Assembly: GCF_000943565.1 (NCBI RefSeq)
Contig: NZ_JTDW01000005.1
Coordinates: forward strand, 124,001-188,000
Source of the DNA: Neotamlana sedimentorum
GTDB taxonomy: Bacteria > Bacteroidota > Bacteroidia > Flavobacteriales > Flavobacteriaceae
Reading direction: 5' to 3'
DNA length: 64,000 bases
A program made the position numbers and the translations under genes. Positions 9,081-31,520 of the stretch are shown here, piece by piece. The notes under the pieces were generated by a model, which saw nothing but the letters and a program-made list of their open reading frames with translations, did not search any database and was not told the origin of the DNA. Numbering within the stretch: position 1 is the stretch's first letter; each line of letters starts with the position of its first letter.

Positions 9081-10436
<1,356 letters not shown>

Positions 10437-12191: not shown

Positions 12192-12256
12192 CAAATGTAT
12201 TGTGAATCATTCCGTTAGGATGGTGCAATAAGTTCTATGAATGGTATATTTGGTTC
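12192..12256 (-). promoter_or_regulatory. AraC-type operator and promoter of the nitronate monooxygenase operon
   Basis: On the minus strand a -7 box TACATTTG (plus-strand 12192-12199) is preceded by two half-sites. Read on the plus strand these are GTTC at 12232 (40 bp from the box edge) and GTTC at 12253 (21 bp further). No TTG -33 element is found at normal spacing, as expected for an activator-dependent promoter. The centre is ATGGTATA, as at the 17.2 kb site. The start codon is about 50 bp downstream. Confidence 0.65.
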
Positions 12257-12330
12257 AACCAAAGATGAACTTAAGAAACGTCATAGCGTTTAAAATATAA
12301 CGAAGGGAATAAAGAAAAAGTTAATGGATA

Positions 12331-13200
12331 TTATGAAGCTACCTTATTTCTGTATGCTAGCGGTGTGATTTTTTCGTGTTTTTTAAACACCTTGATAAAA
12401 TGTGAAGGATCTTCGAAACCACAATCGTAAGCAATTTCATTAATGGTCTTATCTGTTGTTTTTAGAAATTGTGTTGCCAGTTCTATCTTTTTATTAGTAA
12501 TCCAACGCCCAGGACTTTCATTAAAAACAGATTTAAAACTTCTTTTAAAAGTACTTAAACTCATGTTTGCCAAAGTAGCATATTCTTCCAATTTCAAGTT
12601 ATAAGGATAATTATCCATTATTATATCCTTAAGTTGTACGCTATTTGAAGCTTGTAAGCTACAGAAATAGGATGCTATCTCTTGGTTTTTATTAGATGTA
12701 AAGATATTAAGCAATAATTCTTCAAATTTTAATCGTATAACATTAGGGTTTGGATTATTATTTGCTTCAAAATACACTTCTAATGATTTCATGTAAGACA
12801 CTAAAAAGTCATCTACATGTATTCTTAAAACACCGTCTGAATCTAAATGTTCACAATCATTTTTAAATGAAATGGTGTCACTAAATTTAAGCATGAACTT
12901 TTTTATAAATTCATCTGGCATAAAAATCATAAGAGCGCAGTAATCTTCACTATGAAATTGGTGTGCTATATGAGCCCCTTTTTTTACAAATAAGGCATCT
13001 CCTGCTTTTACCATATATTCACCACGATGTGTTTTCCACATTTTTTTACCATTGGTAACAAATACAAAGTAATTGGCATCTGACCACATGCCAAAACGAA
13101 TCTCTTCAATCATACATTTAAACTCAACAAACAGTAATTCGTCAACTGTGAATTTTTTAAATAATTCACACTCTCTTATATATGTAAAAACATTTGTCAT
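12331..13200 (-). CDS. AraC-family transcriptional regulator (paralogue 1)
   Basis: Regulator of 289 residues with an N-terminal cupin-like sensor (about 1-180; GKKMWKTHRGEYMVKAGDALFVKKG) and a C-terminal double helix-turn-helix (about 185-285). The latter contains SLSTFKRSFKSVFNESPGRW and EIAYDCGFEDPSHFIKVFKK. Same length and layout as the two regulators at 31.5-33.3 kb, but its DNA-binding domain is more diverged. It lies just upstream of the nitronate monooxygenase operon and is the best candidate for binding the 12.2, 15.1 and 17.2 kb operators, which form one subtype. That assignment is inference. Confidence 0.88.
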   Translation of the reverse strand: MTNVFTYIRECELFKKFTVDELLFVEFKCMIEEIRFGMWSDANYFVFVTNGKKMWKTHRGEYMVKAGDALFVKKGAHIAHQFHSEDYCALMIFMPDEFIKKFMLKFSDTISFKNDCEHLDSDGVLRIHVDDFLVSYMKSLEVYFEANNNPNPNVIRLKFEELLLNIFTSNKNQEIASYFCSLQASNSVQLKDIIMDNYPYNLKLEEYATLANMSLSTFKRSFKSVFNESPGRWITNKKIELATQFLKTTDKTINEIAYDCGFEDPSHFIKVFKKHEKITPLAYRNKVAS

Positions 13201-13228
13201 AAATCTTAAACGTATTTAAGGTCTAGCA

Positions 13229-13236
13229 CAAATGTA
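13229..13236 (-). promoter_or_regulatory. Possible -7 box of the araC-like gene
   Basis: TACATTTG on the minus strand fits the Bacteroidota -7 consensus TAnnTTTG and lies 29 bp before the start codon at 13200. No convincing -33 TTG at the usual spacing is seen. Confidence 0.35.
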
Positions 13237-13321
13237 TATAAAATCTATCAAAAAAAATTATAGCCAATACCAAAAAGTAAAGGCTATAATTTATTATTAT
13301 GAGGTACTCTTTATTTTTATG

Positions 13322-14086
13322 CTACAAACACCCTTCACTATAACTAGCTTGGGCATCTTTAAATTGAAACCAAAATGTATTACTATACGTTTCATTATCT
13401 ACTTCTATACAATCCAAATTTGGATTGGATGTTGCTAAAAATCCAGTAAAATTTGCATTATTCCCATTTTTGACACATAAGGAATTTAATTGATTATTGG
13501 CAGCGTTAATATAAGTTAATGCACTATTGTCTGATAGATTTAGAATATATAGACTATTATTACTTACATCTATCTGCTCTAATAAAAGGTTATTCTCTGT
13601 ATCGATGGATTCTATATTATTGCTTCTACAAAAAAGGGTTTCTAAATTTGTATTATTTTGAATATTTAAAGTTGCTAGCAGATTATCGTCACATTTAAAA
13701 TTAATTAAATCTATATTATGACTGATATCAATACTCTCTAAATTATTACCAGAACAATATAACGTTGTTAAGTTTATAAAAGCCTCTATACCTTGCAGAC
13801 TGTTAATATCTTTATTGCTAACGTCTAAAGTTGTTAGAGCTTCGGCATCCGCTTTAAGAATACTTCCGTTTATACCATTGGTATCATACCCTAGATTTGA
13901 AAGCACTAATTCAAAATTAGCATCTGGAATGGCTACAGTTTCGGGTTCTTGACTATCTTGACTGTCATCACTACTACAACTTATAAATGTAAAAAGGGTT
14001 AAAACCATGCAAGCTATACCTATAAGGTAAAGGGTTCCCAAACTTAACTGTTGAATTTTGTTGTGTTTTTTAATTGCTTTTTTCAT
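13322..14086 (-). CDS. LRR lipoprotein (IPDANFE-type module)
   Basis: Predicted surface or periplasmic lipoprotein of 254 residues. Signal peptide with lipobox FTFISC followed by SSDD, a Bacteroidota surface-export-like start. One LRR module follows: the cap TVAIPDANFELVLSNLGYD, then about six 21-22-residue repeats of the type LxxLxVSNNxLxxL, ending with NPNLDCIEVDNETYSNTFW. The same module occurs twice in the 15246-17117 protein. Unlike that protein it has no T9SS sorting domain. A ligand or partner cannot be read from the sequence. Confidence 0.75.
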   Translation of the reverse strand: MKKAIKKHNKIQQLSLGTLYLIGIACMVLTLFTFISCSSDDSQDSQEPETVAIPDANFELVLSNLGYDTNGINGSILKADAEALTTLDVSNKDINSLQGIEAFINLTTLYCSGNNLESIDISHNIDLINFKCDDNLLATLNIQNNTNLETLFCRSNNIESIDTENNLLLEQIDVSNNSLYILNLSDNSALTYINAANNQLNSLCVKNGNNANFTGFLATSNPNLDCIEVDNETYSNTFWFQFKDAQASYSEGCL

Positions 14087-14121
14087 TGTATTATTATTTA
14101 ATATTAATTTGTGTTTATAAT

Positions 14122-14487
14122 TTAGATGCCTAACACATCTTTTTTAGTTCTTAATGCGACTTCTACAACTTCTTGAATAAGGTTTTGTGGTACATTTAAT
14201 TCATGTAGTGTTTCTATTAAATGCCCAGCTACAGCATTAAAATGATCTTCAGTAAGATTCATGTGTGCATGTGCTTCTCGCATTGATTTACCTGTATAGT
14301 TTAATGGCGCACCAAACGCATAAGCTAAAAATGCTTTTTGCTTTCCTCTTTGTGACTTCATACTTACATTGTCAAAAAAGTGGCTTATGGTTTTATCTTC
14401 TAATACTTTTTTATAGAAAATATCTACTGCTGCATCTACGGCATTAATACCTCCAATTTTTTCATAAAGTGTTTGATCTTGGGTCAT
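14122..14487 (-). CDS. Truncated haemoglobin, group I type
   Basis: Small haem protein of 121 residues with the 2-over-2 globin fold, typically binding O2 or NO and acting in NO or peroxide defence. It starts TLYEKIGGINAVDAAVDIFY, the family N-terminus. It contains GAPLNYTGKSMREAHAHMNLT with the proximal His at 73 or 75, then EDHFNAVAGHL. Gene spacing of 35 bp to the LRR lipoprotein downstream suggests co-transcription. The neighbourhood of redox and nitro-compound enzymes fits a nitrosative stress role. Confidence 0.88.
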   Translation of the reverse strand: MTQDQTLYEKIGGINAVDAAVDIFYKKVLEDKTISHFFDNVSMKSQRGKQKAFLAYAFGAPLNYTGKSMREAHAHMNLTEDHFNAVAGHLIETLHELNVPQNLIQEVVEVALRTKKDVLGI

Positions 14488-14667
14488 TTTATTTTTTGTT
14501 TTTGGGCATAGCGATTCTTGTCATGGACATTTATTGCTAGCCAGATTATAGTATTGATTAGTGTTTTTTAAAGGAATTTATTTAATAACAGTTACTACTT
14601 ATATTGCTTTGTTATTTATTTGAATTTGCAAATTTTAAATATTTGTTTTTAGTGTACATTAGTATGT

Positions 14668-15012
14668 TCATTCTGCTGAAATTAACATTCTTTTAAAGCT
14701 CATGAATATGTTTTTCTTTACATTATCGAACTTTTCTCCTGAAAGAAACAACTCTTTTATTTCTTGAAATAAGGCCTGTAATTGATCTTTTGAATAGCCT
14801 TGTTCTTCTATAGCCATACATATTTTTTGAATGCTTTGATAATCATTATCTTTATCAAACTCGTTTGAGACTGCTTGTAACTCATCCTTACCAACATGAT
14901 GCTTAAGTATGTTTATGTCTTGGCTTACCTCTCTATAATTTGAATTTGCGCAAAAGAGTAATACATATGCTTTAAATTCTCCTTCTGTCCATTTTTTTGC
15001 ATCTATTTTCAT
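14668..15012 (-). CDS. Conserved small protein, 114 aa (paralogue of 30902-31249)
   Basis: I do not recognise a named family. It is a soluble, helical, charged protein with no signal peptide. It shares with the 115-aa protein at 30902-31249 the overall length and a block EFDKDNDYQSIQKICMAIEE (NEFNEDNDYQSIQKIRMALE in the paralogue), plus YSKDQLQALFQEIKELF. The helical pattern resembles TerB-like or other all-alpha stress proteins, but this is a guess. Both copies sit behind the same type of operator, so they are likely regulon members with a shared role. Confidence 0.7.
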   Translation of the reverse strand: MKIDAKKWTEGEFKAYVLLFCANSNYREVSQDINILKHHVGKDELQAVSNEFDKDNDYQSIQKICMAIEEQGYSKDQLQALFQEIKELFLSGEKFDNVKKNIFMSFKRMLISAE

Positions 15013-15072
15013 TACTCGATAATTTGCTAATGAGTTATCTTATAAACTGCACTTAATTAATTGTTTATGTAG

Positions 15073-15137
15073 CAAATTTATCTGAAAGCCCTGACATAAA
15101 ATGGTTGTAAAAGTTCTATAAATAGTATAATAAGCTC
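15073..15137 (-). promoter_or_regulatory. AraC-type operator and promoter of the 114-aa gene
   Basis: Minus-strand -7 box TAAATTTG (plus 15073-15080). Plus-strand half-sites are GTTC at 15113 (40 bp from the box edge) and GCTC at 15134 (21 bp further). The core AAGTTCTATAAATAGTATAA is nearly the same as at 12.2 and 17.2 kb. The gene start is 60 bp downstream. Confidence 0.65.
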
Positions 15138-15159
15138 AACATAATTTGATGCTTTTGAA

Positions 15160-15194
15160 CAAAAAGAAAGCCATCATTTTTATAATGACTTTCC
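15160..15194 (-). terminator. Bulged hairpin after the LRR-T9SS gene
   Basis: On the minus strand the arms gaaagtcatt and aatgatggctttc pair with a 3-nt bulge, followed by a T-run. It lies about 50 bp past the stop at 15246, so it could end that transcript just before the 15.1 kb operator. Confidence 0.4.
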
Positions 15195-15245
15195 GAACTA
15201 TTAACCACTCTTCATATAGAAGGAAACCTAACAACCTTTGTAGTG

Positions 15246-17117
15246 CTATTGTATTACTAACTTCTTAACTGTACTGCCTGCTTGATTGGATATATTTATA
15301 AAGTATATACCTGCTGTGGTGTTAGCTAAATTGATGGTTTCATTATTACTAACCGTTTTACTTAAAATTAATCTACTGTTTATGTCGTAAACCTTGACTT
15401 TAGAATCTTGCTGTAAACCGTTAATAGAGAATTGACCCGAAGATGGATTAGGAAACAGTTTTACATTATCTAATACAGATACTTCCTCTATAGATAATGT
15501 CCCGTCACAATCTTCACTAAAACTAGTTTGTGCATCTATACCGCTGGACCAATTTGTATTACTATACGCAAGATTATCTACTTCAATACATAAAAGGTTT
15601 GGATTGTTAAGCGCACCAAATAATGTAACATTTTCGTTATTCCCATTCTTTACATTTAAGCTTTCTAGTTGGTTATCGTCACAAAGTATAGATCTTAAAA
15701 CTGGGTTATTGCTTAAATCTAAACCATTAATTTGGTTAGAAAAACAATTTAAAATTTCTAGAGCTGTGTTATTAGTTACATCTAAAGAAGTTAATTGATT
15801 CGTACGGCAGTTGAGTTGTACTAATGATAAATTATTACTGACATCTAAACTTATAAGGTTGTTTTCTTGACATCTTAAATCTGTTAGATTAACAAATCCT
15901 TCAATACCTTGTAAACTATTAATATTTTTATTGCTAACATCTAGATATGTTACCATTGCTGCTTCACCTTCTAAAATGTCTCCTGTAAGACCGTTGAGGT
16001 CATAGCCTAAATCTATAAGAGCTTGTTCAAAATTTGCGTCTGGAATGGCAATAGTAGGACAAGATTCACTGAAACTGGTTTGCGCATCGATACTACTGGA
16101 CCAATTTGAATTACTGTAAGCTTCATCATCTACTTCAACGCATAGTAAGTTTGGATTAGACTGTGTGGAAAACTTATTTGATGCAATATTTGTGTTGTTT
16201 CCGTTTTTAAGATTTACACTTACCAGTTGATTATTTGAAGCTCTAAATTCAGTTAACATGCTATTATTACTGGCATCTATGGTTGTTAGGTTGTTTAAAG
16301 CTAAACCTAAAACTTTCAACTGAATATTATTACTTATATCAATACTGCTTATATTATTATTAGTTGAAGTAAAGGTCTCTAGTAAGGTATTAGAGCTTAT
16401 ATCTATACTGTTAAAATTGTTGTTATTTATACGAAGGTTTTTTAATAAAGTATTGTTAGCAAGGTTTAAAGTGGTTAAGTGATTATCTTTTAAATACAAA
16501 TACTCTAATAACCCATTATTACTTACATCAAGGCTACTTAAATCATTGTCATCTAGATAAAGTGTGTTTAACAAACTATTATTGGTTACGTTAATTGTTG
16601 TTAAATCGTTATGAACAGCTACTAAATATTCTAGGTCCAAATTATTGCTAAAATCCAAACTTGTTATGCTATTAAAAGGACAAGAAATTGTAGTTAGAGC
16701 TGTATTGGCGCTTACATCTAGATTGGTTAATAAATTATTGGAACAATGCAATTGTTCTAAACTTGTATTATTCTGAAGATTTAAAACTGTAATTTGATTA
16801 TCTGTACATTGAAGCGCTACTAAATTTAAATTACTGCTTAAATCTATACTCGATAAATTATTGCCATTACAATTAAGACTTGTTAAGTTTTCAAAAGCTT
16901 CTATACCCTGTAAACTACTAATGTTTTTATTGTTAAGGTTAAGTAAACTTGTTCCAAGTGCATTTGCTACTAAAATATTGCCATTTAATCCATTGGTGTC
17001 AAAACCTAAATCTATGAGTGCTTGTTCAAAGTTTGGGTCTGGAATATCGACTGTTTGTGACATTGAAACCTGTATTGTGAAAAATAATACAAGTGAAAAG
17101 AGTAGGTTTGTTTTCAT
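15246..17117 (-). CDS. Two-module LRR protein secreted by T9SS
   Basis: Predicted cell-surface protein of 623 residues. Signal peptide at about 1-20, then two LRR modules. Module 1 (about 22-355) opens IPDPNFEQALIDLGFD and holds about twelve LRRs. Module 2 (about 357-535) opens IPDANFEQALIDLGYD. Each ends with a block like LLCIEVDxxxYSNxxWSS. The C-terminal 75 residues (VKLFPNPSSGQFSINGL to STVKKLVIQ) are a type A T9SS sorting domain (Por_Secre_tail). It is preceded by an AraC-type operator. Likely adhesin or binding protein. Confidence 0.85.
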   Translation of the reverse strand: MKTNLLFSLVLFFTIQVSMSQTVDIPDPNFEQALIDLGFDTNGLNGNILVANALGTSLLNLNNKNISSLQGIEAFENLTSLNCNGNNLSSIDLSSNLNLVALQCTDNQITVLNLQNNTSLEQLHCSNNLLTNLDVSANTALTTISCPFNSITSLDFSNNLDLEYLVAVHNDLTTINVTNNSLLNTLYLDDNDLSSLDVSNNGLLEYLYLKDNHLTTLNLANNTLLKNLRINNNNFNSIDISSNTLLETFTSTNNNISSIDISNNIQLKVLGLALNNLTTIDASNNSMLTEFRASNNQLVSVNLKNGNNTNIASNKFSTQSNPNLLCVEVDDEAYSNSNWSSSIDAQTSFSESCPTIAIPDANFEQALIDLGYDLNGLTGDILEGEAAMVTYLDVSNKNINSLQGIEGFVNLTDLRCQENNLISLDVSNNLSLVQLNCRTNQLTSLDVTNNTALEILNCFSNQINGLDLSNNPVLRSILCDDNQLESLNVKNGNNENVTLFGALNNPNLLCIEVDNLAYSNTNWSSGIDAQTSFSEDCDGTLSIEEVSVLDNVKLFPNPSSGQFSINGLQQDSKVKVYDINSRLILSKTVSNNETINLANTTAGIYFINISNQAGSTVKKLVIQ

Positions 17118-17184
17118 AATTTTAAAATTTTAATGTTTGATTTTATTTTTAAACTTTAGCTGTATTGCCAAGTATTTACTAGGA

Positions 17185-17249
17185 CAAAATTAATTTGAAT
17201 AAGGCTTATTGGACGGTGTAAGAAGCTCTATAAATGGTATAATTGGGTC
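17185..17249 (-). promoter_or_regulatory. AraC-type operator and promoter of the LRR-T9SS gene
   Basis: Minus-strand -7 box TAATTTTG (plus 17185-17192). Plus-strand half-sites are GCTC at 17225 (40 bp from the box edge) and GGTC at 17246 (21 bp further), a weaker match than the other sites. The core CTCTATAAATGGTATAATTG matches the 12.2 and 15.1 kb sites. The start codon is about 68 bp downstream. Confidence 0.6.
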
Positions 17250-17384
17250 ATAATAAAAAGTGAGCCCAATACATTTCTTTATAAAGTTCTAAAAGATGAT
17301 ACTGTTTTTTTTAAGAAGGAAACTTAACATCTTAAATTTTCTAAAGACATTTCCAACTCGATAGATTTATATTTATTAGGCCGT

Positions 17385-17692
17385 GTTTCAATTTCGGAGT
17401 CTAGTAAAAGAAGTTATTTGAACATCATTAGGGCATTGATCCAAAAACGAGGTATATCCGCAAAATAGTTCATTTTCAAAAAAGAAATTAATTATCTCAC
17501 CTGTCATATAACTTCTAATAGTCATTTCAACAATACCATTATTTATAAAGTAAATAGTATCTACAATCTGTTTATAATTTGTTTAAATCATTCCTTTTTT
17601 TTACATGAATTTTTCTACTGAAAAAGGAAGTTCTTCTTAAGTAAAAGAAGTGTTTAATATCAAATTGTAGAATTCTAAAAAAGACATAACAA
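17385..17692 (-). pseudogene. Relic of a Crp/Fnr-family regulator
   Basis: Translation of the minus strand gives a decayed N-terminal cyclic-nucleotide-binding domain parallel to the intact regulator at 23555-24121. The blocks FLEFYNLILNTS, ELPFSVEK, DTIYFINNGIVEMTIRSYMT and NFFFENELFCGYTSFL are recognisable but interrupted by at least three stop codons. No helix-turn-helix part is left. It fills the otherwise gene-free 17.3-17.8 kb stretch. Confidence 0.65.
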
Positions 17693-17818
17693 AATAGATA
17701 TGTTATTAATGTAAGTTCAGAACACAAAAAATAATTGATTTTAAAATGAAGTTGAAATCATACAATTGACTACCAGAAGTAACACCATTAATATTAATAA
17801 AGTATTTTAATTAGTTTT

Positions 17819-18463
17819 TTATGTCTTTCGTTTTTTCACAAGGAGTATGATGTGTGATTCTGTTGATTTATTAGATTTTACAGACTTCTCAAATTGTTCA
17901 ATTACTGATAAGTTATTTGTTTCTAACTCTTTACAAATTATTTCTAACTCATGGTAATAGAAATACATTCGATTTCCAAAACTGTCAGATATATAACCCG
18001 AACCAGTATATATACCAACTACAAAACTTAAATACAGAATACCTCCTTCAACTAATAATTTTTCTATGCTTGAAAATAATTGATTGCAATCTATATATGA
18101 TAAATATGGAATTGTAAATCCACAAATAATAGCATCATATTTAGTTTTTAAAACCCTTATTTCTCTACAATCCAACACTTTAAATTTTGCTTTCGGGCAA
18201 TTCTTTTTTGCTAGATTGATCATAGCTATCGAAACATCTGTTGCTAAAATGTTAAAAGATGGGTTTAATTTCAGGATATTTCTAGTTATGTTTCCTGGCC
18301 CACAACCAATTTCTAGAATAGACGCATTATGTTTGCCGATTATATTATAAAACTTTTTATAAGTATCATCATATAACTCATTATCAATGAATTTATCTTC
18401 ATAGCGCTGTGCAACTTTACTCCATGACTTAAATGTTTCGATATACTTATTTTCGGATGACAT
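17819..18463 (-). CDS. Class I SAM-dependent methyltransferase
   Basis: Soluble 214-residue methyltransferase. The SAM-binding motif I is ILEIGCGPGNITRNIL (about residues 46-61), followed by NILATDVSIAMINLAKK and KFKVLDCREI, then the motif IICGFTIPYLSY. The acceptor is not evident; related proteins methylate small molecules. It stands alone between two pseudogene-bearing gaps, so context gives no hint. Confidence 0.8.
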   Translation of the reverse strand: MSSENKYIETFKSWSKVAQRYEDKFIDNELYDDTYKKFYNIIGKHNASILEIGCGPGNITRNILKLNPSFNILATDVSIAMINLAKKNCPKAKFKVLDCREIRVLKTKYDAIICGFTIPYLSYIDCNQLFSSIEKLLVEGGILYLSFVVGIYTGSGYISDSFGNRMYFYYHELEIICKELETNNLSVIEQFEKSVKSNKSTESHIILLVKKRKT

Positions 18464-18559
18464 ATGCTCCTTTTATTCATTTTTAAAATTCTACTTCACA
18501 ACAGCTCCAAGTCGTTTTTTGCCAGATTAATCAATGATTGCTTTTGATTTTTTAACTAA

Positions 18560-18801
18560 AAAACACAAACAATGTCTATTTTAACTACTTCAGTATTTTT
18601 TTCATTTTGTAGTTCATAAACTGGGCATCTTGTCTAACTACGGTTTTCTCTTTTTTTATTTTCAATACTAGAGCACCACACTTTTATTTGTTCAGTATTG
18701 TAGTCTGCAGCACATACTGAATAAATTGCGTTGACAAATAAGCGTTGCATTTCAGTAATGTTAGCAGCAGTAGCTTTTTCTATACATAATTCTTTATTCA
18801 T
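18560..18801 (-). pseudogene. Relic of a GNAT acetyltransferase N-terminus
   Basis: From an ATG at 18801 the minus strand reads MNKELCIEKATAANITEMQR, then NAIYSVCAADYNTEQIKVWC and ENKKRENR before a stop, then CPVYELQNE. This matches the opening of GNAT N-acetyltransferases (IRKATxxDIxEIxxLF, then the DYxxEQIxxWxSxIENKxRW block). The acetyl-CoA binding motif and the rest of the gene are missing. Confidence 0.55.
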
Positions 18802-18841
18802 GATTTATTGATATTTCCTTTTTACTTTGGTTATATTTTAA

Positions 18842-19345
18842 TCAATGTTTTTTGTTTTTATAATAGAATTTTGATGCAATATAAATAACCCTTTCTACTT
18901 CAGCATAAGTAACCCCATCTTTATCTGTTAGATTTACTTTTAAACAATAGTCTTTTTCATTATATTTATTTATATCATTCTCAATTTGTTTCAAGAATTC
19001 ATTAGTTATAATGAAGTTTGCAAATACTGTTTTAGTAACAGGACGTTTAAATTGTATTGAGCCAGCTTTATCCCAAACCACGTAATTATTTCCTAAAATT
19101 GTTATAAGTTGCATCATATAAATAGGATCTGTTGCTGCAAACATTGAACCACCAAACATCGTCCCAATATAATTCTTGTTTTTATAAGTTAATGGAATTT
19201 TTATTTTGATAGTTTGTAAATCGTCTGATACAAAACAAACACGACCTGAACTCCTCCTATAAGGGATATTTAGGTTAAAACCCGTTTTTAAAATAGTATT
19301 ACTTTTAAAAATCTTTTGCAATACTTTTAACATTGTTTTATTCAT
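18842..19345 (-). CDS. DUF4442 (hotdog thioesterase-like) protein
   Basis: Protein of 167 residues resembling the DUF4442 hotdog-fold family, related to acyl-CoA thioesterases. NYIGTMFGGSMFAATDPIYMMQLITILG is the conserved helix region and VWDKAGSIQFKRPVTKTVFANF the following strand block. Catalysis is not demonstrated for the family. It overlaps the upstream membrane-protein gene by 4 bp, so they are translationally coupled. Confidence 0.75.
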   Translation of the reverse strand: MNKTMLKVLQKIFKSNTILKTGFNLNIPYRRSSGRVCFVSDDLQTIKIKIPLTYKNKNYIGTMFGGSMFAATDPIYMMQLITILGNNYVVWDKAGSIQFKRPVTKTVFANFIITNEFLKQIENDINKYNEKDYCLKVNLTDKDGVTYAEVERVIYIASKFYYKNKKH

Positions 19346-19740: not shown

Positions 19741-19841
19741 TTGTCATATTAAATAATTGAATACTGATAGTGTTCTTGTTTATTGTAGTTATTAAATTAT
19801 TAGCCCAATAATATTATTTCTTTTAAATTGTGCAATCCTTT

Positions 19842-20402: not shown

Positions 20403-20407
20403 AATTT

Positions 20408-21586: not shown

Positions 21587-21598
21587 TTGATAATTAAT

Positions 21599-22650: not shown

Positions 22651-22692
22651 AATTTTTCTTTTTATAGTCTATTCTTTCTTATTTTTTTTGAA

Positions 22693-23478: not shown

Positions 23479-23554
23479 AATAAATAGTTTAATATTTGAG
23501 TTGCAAAACTAAAAGCAACTTAAATATTAAACTAAAAATTAGACTTGACCTATG

Positions 23555-24121: not shown

Positions 24122-24302
24122 TTTTATTAAAAATAGTTAGACAAATATACAATTTTAGTCACATCTACTAGTTTGTTTAATTTTGATAAAAAATAATACA
24201 TAATTAGAAATATAAAGTAACATTTGGATATAAATTTATATATAACTTAGGACGGAAATAACCTAAAACAATTTTATGAAACATTTAAAGCTAACATATT
24301 TT

Positions 24303-24690: not shown

Positions 24691-24772
24691 TTTTAATAGC
24701 GTTATTTGTCAATGAAATTTTGTAAAACAAAATCATACTTATGTTTTTGGCTCTCTCAAATAAGGCCAAACA

Positions 24773-25192
24773 TCAAACTATATCTTCCTTTGTGTTTAAT
24801 TGACCAATAAATGTATGTTTTCTGATTTTTTCTTCTTTAATGATAAACGTATCTGATGCTATTGAGATACTTAACAAAGGCGAATGTGCGTGCCAAACTA
24901 TATAAGCAACTTCGTTTTCAATAATCATTTTATCTAGTATCAAAACAGTATTACCTTTTGAAAAATGTTTAGCCAATTCGCACATAAACTCTTTAATCTC
25001 TTTAAGCCCCTTATACGTTTTTACCAGTGTAATAATTATTGATTTATTCGTGTAATTTGACATTATTCCATCAATATCATTTTGAAATAATGAATTTAAA
25101 TAGTGCAATACTGTCCTTTCTGACAAAGCACTAATTTCATCAGTTACAATAGACACGTTACCCATTTTTATATTGTTAAATCCTTTATTCAT
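24773..25192 (-). CDS. SnoaL/NTF2-like protein
   Basis: 139 residues with the pattern of an NTF2/SnoaL cone fold: an N-terminal helix (VLHYLNSLFQNDIDGIMSNYT), then strands with KTYKGLKEIKEFMCELAKHF and VAYIVWHAHSP, and a FIIKEEKIRKHTFIG strand. Such proteins bind small ligands or act as isomerases. Its ATG overlaps the last 4 bp of the PFOR gene, so the two are translationally coupled and it may assist that enzyme; this is inference. Confidence 0.7.
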   Translation of the reverse strand: MNKGFNNIKMGNVSIVTDEISALSERTVLHYLNSLFQNDIDGIMSNYTNKSIIITLVKTYKGLKEIKEFMCELAKHFSKGNTVLILDKMIIENEVAYIVWHAHSPLLSISIASDTFIIKEEKIRKHTFIGQLNTKEDIV

Positions 25193-28100
25193 TCCACTGT
25201 CAAGGATTGGAGTTTTTTAAATCGATGGTCTATTTTATGCTGGATATGACTTATCAATAAACTATTTGATTGATTTTCAGCTTTCAAAAACTTGGTAAAT
25301 CGTTTTTCTGACTTTAAATAATCTTTAATATTAATTGATGGGTTTTCAGAATCTAGTTGAAATGAGCTCGATTTTCTAGGGTCATTTCTATATAATAACC
25401 ACTGACCAGAAGCAACAGCGTTTTTGTGATACTGACTTGGGTTTTTCATATCGATACCATGTGATTCACTATGACAATAAGCCATTATAATAGATGGTCC
25501 ATTAAAACTTTCTGCGTCGTTAAAGGCTTTCAAAGTTTGTTCTTGATCAGCACCAATCGCCACAGAAGCCACATAAACATTGTCGTAATTCATAAGCATG
25601 AATCCTAAATCTTTCTTCTGCTTTTGTTTACCATCAAATGAAAATTTTGCTTCAGCTCCAAATGGTGTCGATTTCGATGTTTGTCCTCCTGTATTATCAT
25701 AGACTTCGTTATCTAAAACAAGAATATTTACGTTTTCTCCAGAAGCTATAACGTGGTCTAATCCACCAAAACCTATATCATAAGCCCAACCATCTCCGCC
25801 GACAATCCAAACACTTTTTTTGACTAAATTATCAGCAACTTGTAATAATTGTTTCGCTTCAAAAGCAGTCCTGTTTTTTAACTGTTCTTTTAAAAGTCCT
25901 ATTCGATCTCGTTGATCACTTATTTCAATTTCAGTTTGTTGAGTCGCATTTAGAATATTAGTAACCAAATCGAAATCTAGTTTAGAACTCAGTTTTTTTA
26001 ATAGCTCTCTTGCTTGTGCTTCCTGTTGATTAATTGATAACCGAAAACCAAGTCCGAACTCAGCATTATCTTCAAAAAGTGAATTTGACCACGCAGGACC
26101 TTGTCCTTTATTGTTTTTTGACCAAGGCGTTGTGGGCAATGCACCGCCAAAAATAGAACTTGATCCAGTTGCATTTGCAACCAAAAGCCTATCTCCAAAC
26201 AATTGCGATAGTAATTTTAAATATGGTGCTTCTCCACAACCTTCTACTCCATTTGAATACTTAAATAATGGTGCTTGCAGTTGTTGTTGACTTACTTTTG
26301 TGCGGTCTATTTTTGTTCTATCAAATTCTAGAATCGTTTCAAAACAATTCCAATGATTAATATCATGGACTTCTTTTTCTTTAATAGATAAGGCGTTAGC
26401 AGAACAAGCATCTATACAATTATTACAGCTATTACATTGTTCTGAATTGATCTGAATGGTATAGTTTAATAAATCAAATTCATTAGCATGTGTACGCTTG
26501 AAATTATTAGGCAAATACTCTAAAAAACTATTGTCAAACACTTTTATACGTAATGCTGACTGTGGACAAGCCATACTACAAGCACCACATTGCGTACAAG
26601 TTTCTGCGTCCCAATTTGGCATATATTCTGATGCCTGAATCGAGTTAAATTTTGAAGTGTTGCTTTGGTAAGTTCCATCACATGGCAATAAACTTACTGG
26701 AATATCTTCCTCTTTTTCTTTTAACAATTTCCCTAAAAGTGTGTTTGCAAAATCATCGTTGTTCTCAATAGAAATAGTATTGAAGTTGGTTTTATTTGAT
26801 GTGTCTACTTTTATAATATTTTGAATAATTTCTTCTGGTAATTCTTCTGAAATAAATTCATTATTCAATGCCAAAAACACTGCTTGCAACACTGGAATTG
26901 TGTAGTTTTTAACTGAATAAGTGGATTGCAAACTATTAGTGTTTACTATATATAGTGACACATTTTTATCTATAATTTGCTCTTGTATTTTTACTGAAAG
27001 TACTTGCCAAAACACATGTGACTCTAATGAAGAATTAACCAAAAGTGTACCATTTGGCTTTATATTATTTAGTGTTGTGTCGTGATTGATGAAATTTCTA
27101 TTTTGACAAGCAATAAAATCAGCGCTATTAATTAAATATGGTGCTTTTATTGGTGATGTTGCAATTCTTAAATGTGAACTATTTTTAGAGTTCGATTTTT
27201 TGTAATCGCATGCTGTGTACGATTGCACAAAATTATTTTCTTGACTTCCAATTAGTTTAGTAAGGTTAGAAATACCTTGTGTGTGTTTTTTTTGATGAAA
27301 TATTGTTTGATACATTAAAGTATCTAATTGAATATTACTCGAATAATCAAGACTTGTGTTTTTAACATCATCATTTATACCAATGGTAAAATTGTTTTTT
27401 GGTTGCTCTTGTTTCAAATTTTGAAAAATGGCTGCAACCATATTTGGTGTGAATTCTTTGGATGATAAACCATATCGTCCTCCAACTATTCTTGGAAACG
27501 TTAGAATTTCTTTTGTTTGAAATACTTCAGAAACAGATTGAACGATATCTAAATATAATGGCCCTCCTGTTGAACCTGGTTCTTTTGTTCTATCTAAAAC
27601 AGCAATAGATTTTACTGTTTTAGGCAACACTTTAATGAGGTGTTTTGTGCTAAATGGCCTAAATAATCGCACTTTTATAAGTCCGTGTTTTTCGCCTTTA
27701 GCGTTTAAAAACTTGATGGTTTCTTCAATAGTTTCAGTTGAAGACGCCATAGAAATAATAAGATGTTCTGCTTCTGCATGACCTACATAATCGAAGAGTT
27801 TGTATTGTCTTCCGGTTAATTCCGCGAAAGCGTTCATTTTATCTTGTACAATATCTGGACAAACATCATAAAAAGGATTGATGGCTTCTCTACTTTGAAA
27901 AAACACATCTGGTCCTTGTGAAGTTCCTCTAATTACAGGATTATTAGGATTAAGAGCGCGTTCTCTATGTGATTTTATATCTTTATTATTCATCATAAAT
28001 TGAATTACTTTATCAGTAATTATATCAATTTTAGATATTTCGTGTGATGTTCTAAACCCATCAAAGAAATGTACAAAAGGCACTTTTGATTGTAATGTTG

Positions 28101-28578
28101 CTGCTTGAGAAATTAAAGCAAAATCTTGCGCTTCTTGTACTGAAGCACTACCTAACATGGCGTAACCAGATTGACGAACTGCCATAATATCACTATGGTC
28201 ACCAAATACAGAAAGTGCATGCGTAGCAATACTTCTGGTAGCAACATGAATGACATTTGGTGTTAATTCGCCTGCAATTTTATACATGTTTGGCAACATT
28301 AACAATAAACCTTGTGATGCTGTGAACGTAGTTGATAATGAACCCGTTTGCAAAGCTCCATGCATTGCTCCTGCAACTCCTGCTTCACTTTGCATTTCGA
28401 AAGTTTTTGGAATACTACCAAAAATATTTCGTCGTTTTTCGGCACTCCATTGTTCCACCAACTCACTCATTTCAGATGCTGGCGTAATTGGATAAATAGG
28501 ACAAACCTCATTGGTTTTATACGCTATTTTTGCAACCGCCTGATTTGCATTTACAATATGATAAATTGGTGTTTTCAT
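25189..28578 (-). CDS. nifJ: Pyruvate:ferredoxin/flavodoxin oxidoreductase with altered proximal cluster
   Basis: TPP- and Fe-S-dependent 2-oxoacid oxidoreductase of 1129 residues, normally converting pyruvate and CoA to acetyl-CoA, CO2 and reduced ferredoxin. Domain order is complete: YPITPASEMSE, then HALSVFGDHSDIMAVRQ. Next comes a ferredoxin domain with Cys661-664-667-671 and Cys715-718-721-725, then the TPP motif GGDGWAYDIGFGGLDH near 927. The proximal cluster site is odd. Family CxxC is V778/C781 (GVEGCGEAPY), NATGC is NATGS (Ser806), and the late Cys is Ser1037 (AYCHSESHG, with a Cys at 1035). Pyruvate as substrate is therefore not assured. Confidence 0.88.
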   Translation of the reverse strand: MKTPIYHIVNANQAVAKIAYKTNEVCPIYPITPASEMSELVEQWSAEKRRNIFGSIPKTFEMQSEAGVAGAMHGALQTGSLSTTFTASQGLLLMLPNMYKIAGELTPNVIHVATRSIATHALSVFGDHSDIMAVRQSGYAMLGSASVQEAQDFALISQAATLQSKVPFVHFFDGFRTSHEISKIDIITDKVIQFMMNNKDIKSHRERALNPNNPVIRGTSQGPDVFFQSREAINPFYDVCPDIVQDKMNAFAELTGRQYKLFDYVGHAEAEHLIISMASSTETIEETIKFLNAKGEKHGLIKVRLFRPFSTKHLIKVLPKTVKSIAVLDRTKEPGSTGGPLYLDIVQSVSEVFQTKEILTFPRIVGGRYGLSSKEFTPNMVAAIFQNLKQEQPKNNFTIGINDDVKNTSLDYSSNIQLDTLMYQTIFHQKKHTQGISNLTKLIGSQENNFVQSYTACDYKKSNSKNSSHLRIATSPIKAPYLINSADFIACQNRNFINHDTTLNNIKPNGTLLVNSSLESHVFWQVLSVKIQEQIIDKNVSLYIVNTNSLQSTYSVKNYTIPVLQAVFLALNNEFISEELPEEIIQNIIKVDTSNKTNFNTISIENNDDFANTLLGKLLKEKEEDIPVSLLPCDGTYQSNTSKFNSIQASEYMPNWDAETCTQCGACSMACPQSALRIKVFDNSFLEYLPNNFKRTHANEFDLLNYTIQINSEQCNSCNNCIDACSANALSIKEKEVHDINHWNCFETILEFDRTKIDRTKVSQQQLQAPLFKYSNGVEGCGEAPYLKLLSQLFGDRLLVANATGSSSIFGGALPTTPWSKNNKGQGPAWSNSLFEDNAEFGLGFRLSINQQEAQARELLKKLSSKLDFDLVTNILNATQQTEIEISDQRDRIGLLKEQLKNRTAFEAKQLLQVADNLVKKSVWIVGGDGWAYDIGFGGLDHVIASGENVNILVLDNEVYDNTGGQTSKSTPFGAEAKFSFDGKQKQKKDLGFMLMNYDNVYVASVAIGADQEQTLKAFNDAESFNGPSIIMAYCHSESHGIDMKNPSQYHKNAVASGQWLLYRNDPRKSSSFQLDSENPSINIKDYLKSEKRFTKFLKAENQSNSLLISHIQHKIDHRFKKLQSLTVE

Positions 28579-28608
28579 TGTTAATTTTGGCTTGTTTTTG
28601 ATTGAATT

Positions 28609-28642
28609 AAAAAAGGCTGCTACAAAATGAGCAGCCTTTTTT
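28609..28642 (-). terminator. Terminator between osmC paralogue 2 and PFOR
   Basis: Strong hairpin aaaggctgct / agcagccttt with an 8-nt loop, flanked by A and T runs, 19 bp past the osmC stop and 31 bp before the PFOR start. It should end most osmC transcripts, so PFOR would depend on read-through or on its own promoter. Confidence 0.75.
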
Positions 28643-28660
28643 AGAATAGGAATGCCTTAA

Positions 28661-29215
28661 TTACTCTTTTACAATTTCAATTGAAACTGGTGTTGGATTA
28701 GTAATCATATCGAATACTGGTGAGAATTTTGCTAATTGCTCTAATTGCTCTGCAGATGCATCCGATTTCACTTTTAATGTAAATTTAATACCATCAAATC
28801 CCATACGTACTTCAGGATCTAAACCTAAAAAGCCATGTAAATCTACTCCACCTTTAATGTTAGATTCAGCGCTTTCAATATCAATTCCGTTGGCAGCTGC
28901 GTGATAAACCATCGCTCCAGTTAAACAAGAACTTAAAGCATGTAACACCACTTCTGGAGGTGTTGGTGCTTCATCTTGCCCTAATAATACTTGAGGATGG
29001 CTACATTCTAAAGAGAATGTTTCTTGACGAGATTCGTCTTCGGCTCCTACGCCATAAAATCCTTTGATATTAGACACACAATGTCCACCATCTATCCAAT
29101 TGTTTTTTGCTCTGAACTGAAATTTTGCCAATTCTGGATTGGTTTGTACTGCACCAATAGTTTCAACTAATTGATCTACGTTTACTCCGTTTTTAATGTT
29201 TGCTGTTGTAATCAT
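28661..29215 (-). CDS. OsmC-family protein (paralogue 2)
   Basis: 184-residue OsmC-fold protein, close paralogue of 10444-11004. Shared blocks: NIKGFYGVGAEDESRQETF, APTPPEVVLHALSSCLTGAM with the first Cys, and LAKFSPVFDMITNPTPVSIE, where the second classical Cys is Ser. The missing resolving Cys argues against a standard two-Cys peroxidase. It is preceded by an AraC-type operator and followed by a strong terminator, then PFOR. Confidence 0.85.
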   Translation of the reverse strand: MITTANIKNGVNVDQLVETIGAVQTNPELAKFQFRAKNNWIDGGHCVSNIKGFYGVGAEDESRQETFSLECSHPQVLLGQDEAPTPPEVVLHALSSCLTGAMVYHAAANGIDIESAESNIKGGVDLHGFLGLDPEVRMGFDGIKFTLKVKSDASAEQLEQLAKFSPVFDMITNPTPVSIEIVKE

Positions 29216-29252
29216 TGTTTTAAAAATTTAAATTATTATTATTTGTTTGGTA

Positions 29253-29317
29253 CAAATGTATTGTGATTTCAAAGCGTAGAATTTACTCTAAAGTTCAAAT
29301 TGTTTGGTTAAAAGTTC
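29253..29317 (-). promoter_or_regulatory. AraC-type operator and promoter of osmC paralogue 2
   Basis: Minus-strand -7 box TACATTTG (plus 29253-29260). Plus-strand half-sites are GTTC at 29293 (40 bp from the box edge) and GTTC at 29314 (21 bp further), each inside AAAGTTCAAA, with TTTGGTT in between. The same subtype is seen at 31.5 kb. The start codon is about 38 bp downstream. Confidence 0.7.
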
Positions 29318-29321
29318 AAAG

Positions 29322-29357
29322 CAAAAAAAAAGACCATCTTTTTACAGATAATCTTGG
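29322..29357 (-). terminator. Terminator of the PLP decarboxylase operon
   Basis: On the minus strand, arms aagattatct and agatggtctt pair fully if two G-U pairs are allowed, followed by a run of about nine T. It lies 31 bp past the decarboxylase stop and abuts the 29.3 kb operator. Confidence 0.6.
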
Positions 29358-29387
29358 TTTTTAGTTGGTTTAAGTTTTTATAATGAC

Positions 29388-30893
29388 TTATTTTGATAGT
29401 AATTCTTTATGTAATTTTCGTCCTTCAGTGACTACAATATCAATGATTTCCTCAATGTCTTTTTTAGAAGTTCTAAAGTTTACGATACAACTCCTTAAAC
29501 AATAGGTATTATGAACAATTGCATTAGACACAAAAACTTTTCCACCTTGTTGCAAATTATTTACTAAGGCTTCATTTAATTTGTTTAGATAGGCTTCATT
29601 ATCTTTAATGTCTTTCGATATTTCTGTAGGTATATATCTAAATGTTGTGATACTTAAATTTTGAGTTATGGCTTCTAATTCTGGATGCTTATCAGATAAT
29701 CTGTATAGAAGTCTTGATAATTCAATATCTTCATTAATCATTTCTCTATAGCCTTTTCTTCCTACTTGCTGAAGCATTAACCATATTTTCAAAGCTCTAA
29801 ATCCGCGTGAATTTTGAAGTCCGTATTCATAAAAATTCTGTTCCGCATTTTCGGTCGCAAAATTATAATATTCAGGATGTGAACTATAAGCATCTACTAA
29901 ATGTTTGGGATTTTTCACCAAGGTGCAACCTGCTTCTAACGGACTATATAACCATTTATGAGGGTCGATAGCAATAGAATCTGCGTCTTTAATCCCTTTA
30001 AATGCCATTTCTAACTCTGGAAGAATATTTGCTGGTACTCCATACGCACCATCTATATGAAACCAAAGATGATATAATTTACAAATTGCTGCAATACCCT
30101 CTAGATCATCAACTGTCCCAGTACTAACATCGCCTGCTGTACCTACTACAAAAAAAGGTTCATGACCATCTATAATATCTGTGGTGATCGCTAATTCTAA
30201 AGCTTCCAAATTCATTTTATTATCGGCATCTGTTTCAATCCATCTAATTGCATTTGTTCCATGTCCGAACAGAATTGCTGCCTTATCAATCCATGTATGC
30301 GTAGATTTAGAACAATACATCATTAATTTTTTTGAATTAGAATTAATTCCATTTTCTTTTATATCAGATGGAGCTTTTGCTGTTCTTGCAGCAAGAAATG
30401 CGGTGAAGTTTGCCATATTTCCACCACTGACTAACACACCTCCATAATCTGAAGAGACACCTATAAACTCAGCTAACCATTGAATGGTTTGTTTCTCAAT
30501 TTCTGTTGCCATTGGACCTAAAGCAAATGCGCCAACATTTGGGTTTACGGTTGCGGCTAGCATATCACCTAAAGCACCAATTGGAGCAGCAGAACCTGTG
30601 ATGTAACCCATAAATTTTGGATGACCATTAAATAAGGAATGGTTAAATAATAAATCAGTCGCTTTACTTAATAATGTTTCCGCTGGCATACCACTTTCAG
30701 GAAATGATTTATTACCTAACAGACCTTGTAATTGCTTTGGTTTTTCGCCTGTTGTTACAGGTTTATTAGCTATAGTTTCATTAAACTCAGAAATACTTTC
30801 GATTAATTTGTAACCTAAAGATTTATATTCTTTCGATGATATTTCTAAAGGTGCTTTTCTATGCTTTTCCATAGTATTCGGATTATTTTTCAA
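29388..30893 (-). CDS. Group II PLP-dependent amino acid decarboxylase
   Basis: Cytosolic PLP enzyme of the aromatic-L-amino-acid/glutamate decarboxylase family, 501 residues. Family blocks include GYITGSAAPIGALGDMLAA, GVLVSGGNMANFTAFLAAR, WFHIDGAYGVPA and the PLP Lys in SIAIDPHKWLYSPLEAGC near residue 313. The substrate (aromatic amino acid, Glu, Asp or other) cannot be chosen from sequence alone. It starts 9 bp after the 115-aa gene, so both are one transcript under the operator at 31.5 kb. Confidence 0.88.
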   Translation of the reverse strand: MKNNPNTMEKHRKAPLEISSKEYKSLGYKLIESISEFNETIANKPVTTGEKPKQLQGLLGNKSFPESGMPAETLLSKATDLLFNHSLFNGHPKFMGYITGSAAPIGALGDMLAATVNPNVGAFALGPMATEIEKQTIQWLAEFIGVSSDYGGVLVSGGNMANFTAFLAARTAKAPSDIKENGINSNSKKLMMYCSKSTHTWIDKAAILFGHGTNAIRWIETDADNKMNLEALELAITTDIIDGHEPFFVVGTAGDVSTGTVDDLEGIAAICKLYHLWFHIDGAYGVPANILPELEMAFKGIKDADSIAIDPHKWLYSPLEAGCTLVKNPKHLVDAYSSHPEYYNFATENAEQNFYEYGLQNSRGFRALKIWLMLQQVGRKGYREMINEDIELSRLLYRLSDKHPELEAITQNLSITTFRYIPTEISKDIKDNEAYLNKLNEALVNNLQQGGKVFVSNAIVHNTYCLRSCIVNFRTSKKDIEEIIDIVVTEGRKLHKELLSK

Positions 30894-30901
30894 AGTAATA
30901 G

Positions 30902-31249
30902 TTATGCTGCAGTATTTAAAATACGTTCTAGGTTTGTGAAAATGGAATTAATAATCAAGTTATTCCTTTTTTTCGACAATGAGAACATTGTTTTAATTTC
31001 TAGAAATAAGGTGTTTATTTGTTCTTTAGAATACGCCTTATTTTCTAATGCCATTCGAATTTTTTGAATACTTTGATAATCATTATCCTCATTAAACTCA
31101 TTATAAATTTTATCAAATTCTGGCTTCTTAATTTCAAATCTACTATAGTCTATATTTTGTATTGATACTGTATAATCGGTATTTATAAAAAACAGTAATA
31201 AATATATTTTTATATCTGTTTTTGACCAATTTGAATTATTTTTTTCCAT
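30902..31249 (-). CDS. Conserved small protein, 115 aa (paralogue of 14668-15012)
   Basis: Soluble helical protein of unknown family. It shares the layout of the 114-aa protein at 14.7 kb: an N-terminal segment NWSKTDIKIYLLLFFINTDY (compare KWTEGEFKAYVLLFCANSNY), the block DNDYQSIQKIRMALE, and YSKEQINTLFLEIKTMF. It lies 9 bp before the decarboxylase gene and is predicted to share its promoter. Presence of a copy in both operator-linked clusters suggests an accessory role in the same response. Confidence 0.7.
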   Translation of the reverse strand: MEKNNSNWSKTDIKIYLLLFFINTDYTVSIQNIDYSRFEIKKPEFDKIYNEFNEDNDYQSIQKIRMALENKAYSKEQINTLFLEIKTMFSLSKKRNNLIINSIFTNLERILNTAA

Positions 31250-31282
31250 TATATTTAGAGTTGATTTTTAATAAGGACGTAC

Positions 31283-31432
31283 TTAAAGCATGCTTTGTAT
31301 ATACTTTATTAAAGCTTTCATGAAGAGGTATTGAATAAACATATAGCCAAAAAATGTTATACAAGAAATAGCAAATACTACTTTTAGAATGCATAAATAG
31401 TGGGGTTGAATGAAAGTAAATACACTGTCCAT
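31283..31432 (-). CDS. Small single-helix membrane protein, 49 aa
   Basis: An ATG at 31432 opens a 49-codon frame reading MDSVFTFIQPHYLCILKVVF, then a hydrophobic stretch ISCITFFGYMFIQYLFM, and ending in IKYIQSML. It has one or two membrane segments. It is the first frame after the operator/promoter at 31.5 kb (start 24 bp from the -7 box) and lies 33 bp before the 115-aa gene. Family unknown; it could also be untranslated leader. Confidence 0.45.
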   Translation of the reverse strand: MDSVFTFIQPHYLCILKVVFAISCITFFGYMFIQYLFMKALIKYIQSML

Positions 31433-31455
31433 AATTTTAAGTTTGAATTACAGGA

Positions 31456-31520
31456 CAAATGTATCTTGACTTTAAAGTGTTGGATTTTCTTTAAAGTTCA
31501 ATTAATTTGGTAAAAAGTTC
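31456..31520 (-). promoter_or_regulatory. AraC-type operator and promoter of the 49aa-115aa-decarboxylase unit
   Basis: Minus-strand -7 box TACATTTG (plus 31456-31463). Plus-strand half-sites are GTTC at 31496 (40 bp from the box edge) and GTTC at 31517 (21 bp further), each within AAAGTTCAA. The spacer has TTTGGTAA. It closely matches the 29.3 kb site. Confidence 0.7.

Follow-up and report, generated by a model that had tools for sequence, protein, structure and literature searches.

Paired half-sites of fixed spacing at five promoters of Neotamlana sedimentorum as probable operators of ExsA_N-type AraC regulators

The question considered here is what reads a motif that recurs, with one and the same spacing, at five promoters of Neotamlana sedimentorum, and to what effect. 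The stretch concerned, called the window below, comprises 64,000 nt of a 3.96-Mb draft genome that is 99.94% complete (contig NZ_JTDW01000005.1, positions 124,001 to 188,000); at 12192, 15073, 17185, 29253 and 31456 on its minus strand, two similar half-sites lie at a fixed distance before a -7 promoter box of the form TAnnTTTG, and it also holds three genes for AraC-type regulators (araC1, araC2 and araC3). An initial annotation had taken the five sites for AraC-type operators defining a local regulon, with two subtypes served by different paralogues. The analysis described here leads to much the same view: the sites are very probably operators of AraC/XylS activators with an ExsA_N sensor domain, a judgement that takes in both the pairing of two spellings (A and B) with two groups of regulators and activation as the mode of action, while the nature of the signal is left out of it. 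From geometry, conservation, co-occurrence of site and regulator, the position of sites behind araC genes and two sequence classes that run parallel to the protein tree, we infer binding and activation and, more tentatively, the kind of signal.

Read on the strand of the genes, all five sites take the form GANC-N17-GARC-N32-TAnnTTTG, the distal half-site beginning exactly 21 bp beyond the proximal one; the two half-sites agree with one another at 11, 10, 10, 11 and 12 of 16 positions (here and below in the order of sites given above), and the box lies 50, 60, 67, 37 and 23 nt before the start codon of a gene on the same strand. That the geometry is exact, that each site precedes a gene on its own strand and that the usual -33 TTG is missing had all been claimed beforehand, and all three points held on recounting. 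There is no TTG 17–27 nt upstream of the -7 box at any of the five sites, and among 360 spacing combinations counted in the window the 17/32 combination alone reaches five occurrences, the other 359 giving one at most and the mean over all 360 being 0.02. In 200 windows simulated from the dinucleotide frequencies of the real one, the pattern G[AG][ACG]C-N17-GA[AG]C-N32-TAnnTTTG did not occur at all, as against five times in the window, and a looser pattern with GRNC boxes occurred 0.01 times on average and once at most. What the five sites share is this geometry and not a single sequence, as becomes clear when the genome is searched with models of the two spellings: R1 for the B type, trained on 18 sites, all from other genomes (the own genome being held out), and R2 for the A type, trained on nine sites beside AraC1-type proteins of other genomes. 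The genome-wide motif scan that had been suggested as a check has a divided outcome, in that a plain consensus gave four matches, three of them window sites, against one for the reversed control (weak evidence if taken alone), whereas the models built from other genomes find both B sites and, by rank, two of the A sites. R1 places 31456 (49.7 bits, E 1.4e-12) and 29253 (49.0 bits, E 2.5e-12; E-values for the whole genome) at the top, followed by a third strong match on contig C3 (E 5.5e-9), the next match being at E 0.01. The C3 site has spacers of 17 and 32 and lies directly behind a fourth araC gene of the ExsA_N type and before the next gene; strong R1 sites are thus confined to the window and to the position behind this fourth regulator, which supports the proposed local regulon.

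All three regulators of the window match the Pfam family ExsA_N (PF22200) at 126.8–134.4 bits, the cut-off being 27, and in each of them HTH_18 and HTH_AraC are above cut-off, corresponding to the C-terminal domain of AraC type with two helix-turn-helix (HTH) units; the AlphaFold2 model of AraC3 has a mean pLDDT (predicted local distance difference test) of 89.1. The protein encoded before the C3 site is a fourth ExsA_N protein over the cut-off in this genome, and a fifth falls below it.

Is the spacing kept elsewhere? The loci of relatives were first gathered by scanning named genomes with AraC3, which yielded 21 of them, and the strict pattern GARC-N17-GARC-N31..33-TAnnTTTG is present in 12; in 11 of these 12 it lies behind araC on the same strand, 12 to 225 bp past the stop codon, while in the twelfth (L009) it is followed by an mddA-like gene, which itself lies ahead of araC. 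Six more (L012, L019, L021, L022, L024 and L025) keep the spacing with letters altered in a half-site or in the box. The commonest arrangement in relatives is araC, one site and one target operon; in the window this unit would appear expanded, AraC1 having two further sites and AraC2 and AraC3 standing in tandem. A test that ignores the letters, looking for 15-base direct repeats (at least 11/15) before the 1121 TAnnTTTG boxes of the window and of loci L005–L025 and L056–L076, gives 8–18 cases per offset at distance 21 and 0–4 at the other distances from 14 to 31 (neighbouring offsets recount the same site), so that distance 21 is the only peak. Of 43 regions behind araC, 41 were scored for the 21-bp register and 12 control spacings; the 21-bp register comes out above every control in 24 of these 41, against the three or so expected if the 13 spacings were alike; this test covers only the 330 nt after araC, sites overlapping the stop codon are unscorable in it, its box offsets were fixed post hoc from sites already seen, some of its loci are close relatives, L065 was scored as a miss though its site is visible by eye, and L062 (whose site lies farther off) and L066 were left unscored. 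In 37 distinct B-type 65-mers the information per column is 1.14 and 1.23 bits in the half-sites and 1.30 bits in the box, against 0.30 bits in the spacer, with a TTG in the -33 region of two of them; in the alignments of both types each half-site shows two conserved boxes.

Evidence as to which proteins may be involved comes from co-occurrence. In a survey of 397 genomes of the family (thresholds E 1e-80 for an AraC2/3-type protein and E 1e-4 for an R1 site), 25 have the protein and 25 the site: 23 have both, two the protein only, two the site only and 370 neither. The family is Flavobacteriaceae, as judged from G172, a member whose araC coordinates and site coincide with those of Tamlana fucoidanivorans L016. 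A site is thus found in 23 of the 25 genomes with the protein and in 2 of the 372 without it (Fisher p 7e-33, which is no clean probability, the genomes being mutually related and not independent). In both protein-only cases (G080 and G214) the two repeats can be seen by eye behind araC, with a poor -7 box in G214; of the site-only cases, G224 has a more distant AraC relative 32 bp ahead of its site, and G003 has a partial match with no AraC relative nearby. In 21 of the 22 other genomes with both, the site starts 22–51 bp past the matched end of araC on the same strand; the exception, G009, has it on another contig, before an mddA-like gene and behind two short, remnant-like AraC matches. Taken with this usual position, the co-occurrence supports the proposal that the sites are AraC-type operators and suggests that the neighbouring regulators bind them.

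In a wider survey of 385 genomes spread over the phylum (threshold E 1e-45 for an AraC relative), eight have a site, nine an AraC relative and three both. Two protein-only genomes from other families (G682 and G750) show the exact spacing and box by eye, and G596 (protein only) and G508 (both) have the repeats with a TA at the correct distance and no TTTG; of the remaining protein-only genomes, G558 has one half-site and G157 and G636 none. The layout thus extends to other families of the phylum. The five site-only matches, with no AraC relative in the surrounding 3 kb, are counted as chance or as belonging to other regulators. Across the 397- and 385-genome scans, six R1 matches (L148 and L150–L154) lie at least about 1.5 kb from any AraC relative, and these are what could be cited for the suggestion that the layout is a general extension of sigma-A promoters, or is bound by some unrelated regulator, the araC neighbours being incidental; given the figures of 23/25 and 2/372, and the site behind the fourth ExsA_N AraC gene, outside the window, this seems very improbable. 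Still less credence attaches to the notion that the conserved stretch is an RNA element at the 3' end of the araC mRNA, as might be thought from the many copies that begin 22–51 bp from the matched end of araC: 15073, 17185 and 29253 are not behind araC at all, conservation ends in the promoter box, and an Rfam search gave no match at the sites.

Some unusual arrangements may be recorded here. In L009, which comes from one metagenome-assembled genome, three sites lie near araC (L009:8750-9158), one before the mddA-like gene and, on the opposite strand, a tandem pair that lies upstream of an open reading frame (ORF) of 84 amino acids (aa) and of a relative of the window's 139-aa protein. One genome (loci L127, at G009:C10:61350, and L013/L076) has lost a half-site behind its full-length araC and keeps an intact site elsewhere, behind the apparent araC remnant and before an mddA-like gene.

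Turning to the question of which regulator would read which site, the two spellings differ in the second box of the half-site. The B half-site consensus is GAACTTTn-AGnAAA, while the nine A-type sites of relatives have C at position 4 and AT at positions 15–16 of each half-site, and position 13 is C in 7/9 distal and 9/9 proximal half-sites; at positions 13–16 the A sites of the window read (distal/proximal) CCAT/CCAT at 12192, CTAT/CCAT at 15073 and CCAT/CCGT at 17185. The models do not cross-recognise: R1 gives two of the A sites only 8.3 and 7.4 bits and leaves the third unlisted, and neither B site of the window is listed by R2. In the own genome R2 ranks 15073 first (E 0.12) and 12192 second (E 0.17), values that are not significant and amount to support by rank only, and it scores 17185 weakly, at 6.8 bits. 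In a tree of 40 proteins, eight of which belong to neither group, the A and B proteins lie on opposite sides of one branch with support 100/99. Comparison of loci points the same way, since in L057 the gene for an 83% relative of AraC1 is followed by an NMO-like (nitronate monooxygenase-like) gene with an A-type site, and in Arenibacter that for an 81% relative of AraC3 is followed by OsmC2-PFOR (pyruvate:ferredoxin oxidoreductase) with a B site near-identical to that of the window. (The NMO-like gene of L057, at L057:10850-12036, is split across two overlapping reading frames.)

It is thus supported, by sequence comparison, that the two operator spellings follow two AraC clades, and the subdivision into three sites and two stands as first drawn. 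Because of the synteny in L057 and Arenibacter, the tree and the non-crossing models, the assignment of paralogues to spellings made in the initial annotation is likewise well supported by comparison: AraC1 would read the A spelling (GRNC...CnAT) at 12192, 15073 and 17185, and AraC2 and AraC3 the B spelling (GAACTTT..AGnAAA) at 29253 and 31456. Since the DNA-binding parts of AraC2 and AraC3 agree at 84/104 positions (their sensors at 100/184), each of these two proteins probably recognises 29253 as well as 31456, and two signals could then turn on the same pair of operons. It might be objected that all three proteins act on all five promoters and that the spellings represent drift and not specificity, given that the GANC/GARC first box and the spacing are common to all the sites and that AraC1 and AraC2 are identical at 15/28 positions of HTH1. 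We think this unlikely, as HTH2 agrees at only 11/33 positions (the B clade has GF[KTAR]N.SHF there, the A clade GFE[DE].S), the second box differs, each clade retains its own spelling in other genomes and neither model recognises the other's sites. A difference in the second box would be in line with the situation in ExsA, where, according to PMC12648661, HTH2 contacts the second element.

There are, nevertheless, a number of points that weigh against the interpretation of the sites as AraC operators with paired spellings, besides the R2 values and the six isolated R1 matches already mentioned. Seven of the 22 non-own sites lie near the training set (five identical to a training site and two differing by two or three bases), although the remaining 15 share just 39–51 of 65 positions with the nearest one. 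The first box of the distal half-site on C3 is TTTC and not GRNC; L013 keeps one half-site and has lost the second repeat; and no such site is found behind araC in the acyl-CoA-dehydrogenase group (L067, L068, L069, L071 and L073) or behind the araC of L011, L020, G157 and G636. In the register used, the eight A-clade relatives L058–L065 have 33 and not 32 bases before the box (L065 being counted by eye). Finally, the target genes have no one obvious pathway in common.

As regards how such a site would work, each presents a pair of bipartite half-sites in head-to-tail orientation, 21 bp or about two turns of the helix apart, and the proximal one ends some 20 bp short of the sigma-A -7 box, in the place of a -33 element. 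Two AraC monomers would then be expected to sit next to each other on the same face of the helix, with the monomer on the proximal half-site substituting for the absent -33 contact and recruiting RNA polymerase, as in class II AraC/XylS activation. If the box occupies -12 to -5, as given for the TAnnTTTG box of Flavobacterium psychrophilum (PMC9723704), the half-sites would span roughly -69 to -54 (distal) and -48 to -33 (proximal), positions that are deduced from the sequence. Activation is proposed because the -33 box is missing and because the proteins belong to the AraC/XylS family. In principle they could be repressors, two monomers covering the -33 region and excluding RNA polymerase until a signal releases them, and the proximal half-site does sit where the polymerase would contact a -33 element. 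Repression is nonetheless improbable in our view: the -33 TTG is missing in 35/37 distinct B-type sites as well as in 5/5 window sites, as expected of promoters that depend on an activator, and the geometry resembles the two direct repeats of XylS, which, once occupied, bring about contact with RNA polymerase (PMC5481539).

The XylS/Pm system of the Pseudomonas TOL plasmid is a close parallel in layout: two monomers occupy a pair of direct repeats, both made up of a box A (5') and a box B (3'); on our own reading of PMC5481539, repeats of 15 bp with 6 bp between them would recur every 21 bp. It differs in that here the sequences are others, the promoter has the Bacteroidota -7/-33 instead of -10/-35 elements, the sensor is ExsA_N and the targets are different. 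Escherichia coli AraC, which senses arabinose and loops DNA, likewise binds two direct 17-bp half-sites 21 bp apart at araI1-I2, the proximal one at -35, although its sensor fold is more distant (2arc, TM, or template-modelling score, 0.55–0.59 on target). ExsA of Pseudomonas aeruginosa also has bipartite sites, in which HTH1 reads GnC and HTH2 TGnnA (PMC12648661), a combination much like GRNC with AGnAAA or CnAT here. In the profile comparison with 4zua, the regulatory domain of ExsA (E 2.6e-6), C30 of the sensor aligns with a cysteine of ExsA and C89 with an arginine, so that the second conserved cysteine is absent in ExsA, and the operator letters differ too. Among the neighbouring proteins submitted, a subset of all neighbours, there was no Pfam match to type III secretion families, and the present regulators are not classed as ExsA.

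What, then, might the sensor detect? C30 is present in 40/40 and C89 in 39/40 of the AraC proteins, and the sensor matches the regulatory domain of ExsA (4zua) at 2.4 A and TM 0.84 on target length in a fold search, full-length matches to ToxT, Rns and CsvR having E-values of 8e-12 to 1e-9. The genes behind such sites include those for OsmC-like proteins, mddA-like methyltransferases, NMO with OsmC and MetY, and OsmC with PFOR. The MddA model NF045656 scores 256.9, 262.8 and 261.6 bits on three target proteins of relatives, over profile positions 1–238 of 238 and below its cut-off of 270, and these are hence named MddA-like; one target is weakly ydhR-like (25.3 bits, cut-off 27.1), acyl-CoA-dehydrogenase-like flavoproteins lie behind sites in L022 and, after an OsmC, in L024, and further mddA-like, OsmC-like and dehydrogenase-like genes occur in the surveyed genomes, as judged from their first 60 residues. 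Molybdoenzymes are found near mddA-like genes (L007 and L010), in L010 with one fused to a reductase. The reading of the mddA-like neighbourhood as a sulfur cluster was weakened, the upstream genes in L007 being mostly for molybdenum-cofactor functions plus one TauE.

The targets (OsmC, MddA-like, NMO and PFOR) together with the two conserved cysteines hint at thiol or oxidant sensing, and a thiol-reactive or reactive-sulfur/oxidant signal read by C30 and C89 is the best single guess, if a tentative one. A partial precedent is RclR, the E. coli activator that responds to reactive chlorine and is switched through Cys21 and Cys89 (PMC7464077); the likeness is that of an AraC-family activator with a cysteine pair and is an analogy only, as the RclR model NF040475 gives 30.6 bits for AraC1 and 19.9 for AraC3 against a cut-off of 400, indicating another family. 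ToxT and Rns, for their part, bind fatty acid, and ExsA is controlled by an anti-activator. A small hydrophobic ligand or a partner protein is accordingly a serious contender as the signal, somewhat short of an even chance and about as likely as a thiol-reactive one: it fits the fold matches just given, and C30, being shared with ExsA, need not be a redox sensor, although the near-invariance of two cysteines in 40 proteins and the several redox or sulfur targets argue, if indirectly, the other way. Whether the whole can be generalised to a Bacteroidota-wide, two-cysteine ExsA_N AraC family that senses a reactive sulfur or thiol-reactive compound (e.g. methanethiol or hypohalous acid) and switches on detoxification genes (OsmC, MddA-like methyltransferase and flavin enzymes) via a strict 21/32-bp grammar, with mutually exclusive spellings of which several coexist per genome, is doubtful, though conceivable. 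In L070, L072 and L074 genes with a PAP2 domain lie downstream of araC genes of a separate clade; two of these PAP2 genes match a vanadium chloroperoxidase domain below the cut-off, and a link of these neighbours to reactive halogen chemistry is possible.

To our knowledge, few activators of Bacteroidota have operators that are defined base by base. Here the kind of system is a known one, while the operator code, its conservation across the phylum and the split into two spellings appear undescribed in the literature searched. Sequence alone suffices, in dozens of genomes, to read off a regulator together with its likely DNA code and its target, and the codes, of which there are at least two, do not mix. 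From this, AraC regulons can be predicted in a testable way, and orthogonal inducible promoters could be gained for a phylum in which genetic tools are few; the findings also point to possible control of an MddA-like gene (methanethiol to dimethyl sulfide) in marine flavobacteria.

Table 1 Regulators, candidate operator-promoters and genes of the window. Four-letter motifs are the starts of the half-sites.
Feature	Position	Strand	Remarks
araC1	12331..13200	-	Pfam ExsA_N sensor and AraC HTH; A clade in tree
araC2	31546..32415	-	Pfam ExsA_N sensor and AraC HTH; groups with Hyunsoonleella aquatilis (96/93)
araC3	32442..33311	-	Pfam ExsA_N sensor and AraC HTH; groups with Arenibacter (100/100)
A-type operator-promoter (candidate)	12192..12256	-	Distal 12241-12256 (GAAC), proximal 12220-12235 (GAAC), -7 box 12192-12199 (TACATTTG); 74 bp after araC1; precedes NMO-osmC1-metY
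A-type operator-promoter (candidate)	15073..15137	-	Distal 15122-15137 (GAGC), proximal 15101-15116 (GAAC), -7 box 15073-15080 (TAAATTTG); precedes 114-aa gene
A-type operator-promoter (candidate)	17185..17249	-	Distal 17234-17249 (GACC), proximal 17213-17228 (GAGC), -7 box 17185-17192 (TAATTTTG); precedes LRR-T9SS gene
B-type operator-promoter (candidate)	29253..29317	-	Distal 29302-29317 (GAAC), proximal 29281-29296 (GAAC), -7 box 29253-29260 (TACATTTG); precedes osmC2, PFOR
B-type operator-promoter (candidate)	31456..31520	-	Distal 31505-31520 (GAAC), proximal 31484-31499 (GAAC), -7 box 31456-31463 (TACATTTG); 25 bp after araC2; precedes 49-aa, 115-aa and decarboxylase genes
O-acetylhomoserine sulfhydrylase (MetY)	9081..10418	-	TIGR01326, 658.6 bits (cut-off 495.1)
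OsmC-like protein 1	10444..11004	-	Pfam; 39% identity to OsmC2
Nitronate monooxygenase-like (NMO)	11017..12141	-	Pfam NMO, 1e-44; first gene after site 12192
114-aa protein	14668..15012	-	No Pfam match; 41% identity to 115-aa protein; first gene after site 15073
Leucine-rich repeat (LRR) protein with type IX secretion system (T9SS) sorting tail	15246..17117	-	Pfam; after site 17185
Pyruvate:ferredoxin oxidoreductase (PFOR)	25189..28578	-	TIGR02176, 1360.6 bits; follows osmC2, likewise in three Arenibacter loci
OsmC-like protein 2	28661..29215	-	Pfam; first gene after site 29253
49-aa ORF, 115-aa protein and pyridoxal-phosphate decarboxylase	29388..31432	-	49-aa ORF 31283-31432; 115-aa protein 30902-31249; decarboxylase 29388-30893

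The features of the window are collected in Table 1. The 114-aa and 115-aa proteins, neither with a Pfam match, and OsmC1 and OsmC2 form two pairs of paralogues, with one member of each pair per AraC group, and the A and B regulons would therefore hold partly parallel gene sets; the predicted fold of the 114-aa protein is of low confidence (pLDDT 52.5). Autoregulation was considered and dropped, the window scans with R1 and R2 having given only matches of less than 5 bits before araC1 or araC3. A recent tandem duplication of araC2 and araC3 is ruled out by their separate groupings in the tree. Third-codon identity between these two genes is 0.30–0.60 up to codon 220, 0.75–0.80 over codons 221–260 (the HTH region), 0.50 over codons 261–280 and 0.75 in the last 8 codons, and on the strength of these values gene conversion in the DNA-binding part is possible. 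Just upstream of araC3 a tyrosine integrase is present in fragments (33803-34646), its arm and SAM-like domains falling in two frames that overlap, and no AraC3-like protein was found at E 1e-20 in the three congeneric genomes searched; for these two reasons the araC cluster may have been acquired. Elsewhere in the window, at 56326-56365 on the minus strand, there is a match to the Rfam cis-regulatory RNA DUF805b (37.6 bits, gathering score 35.6).

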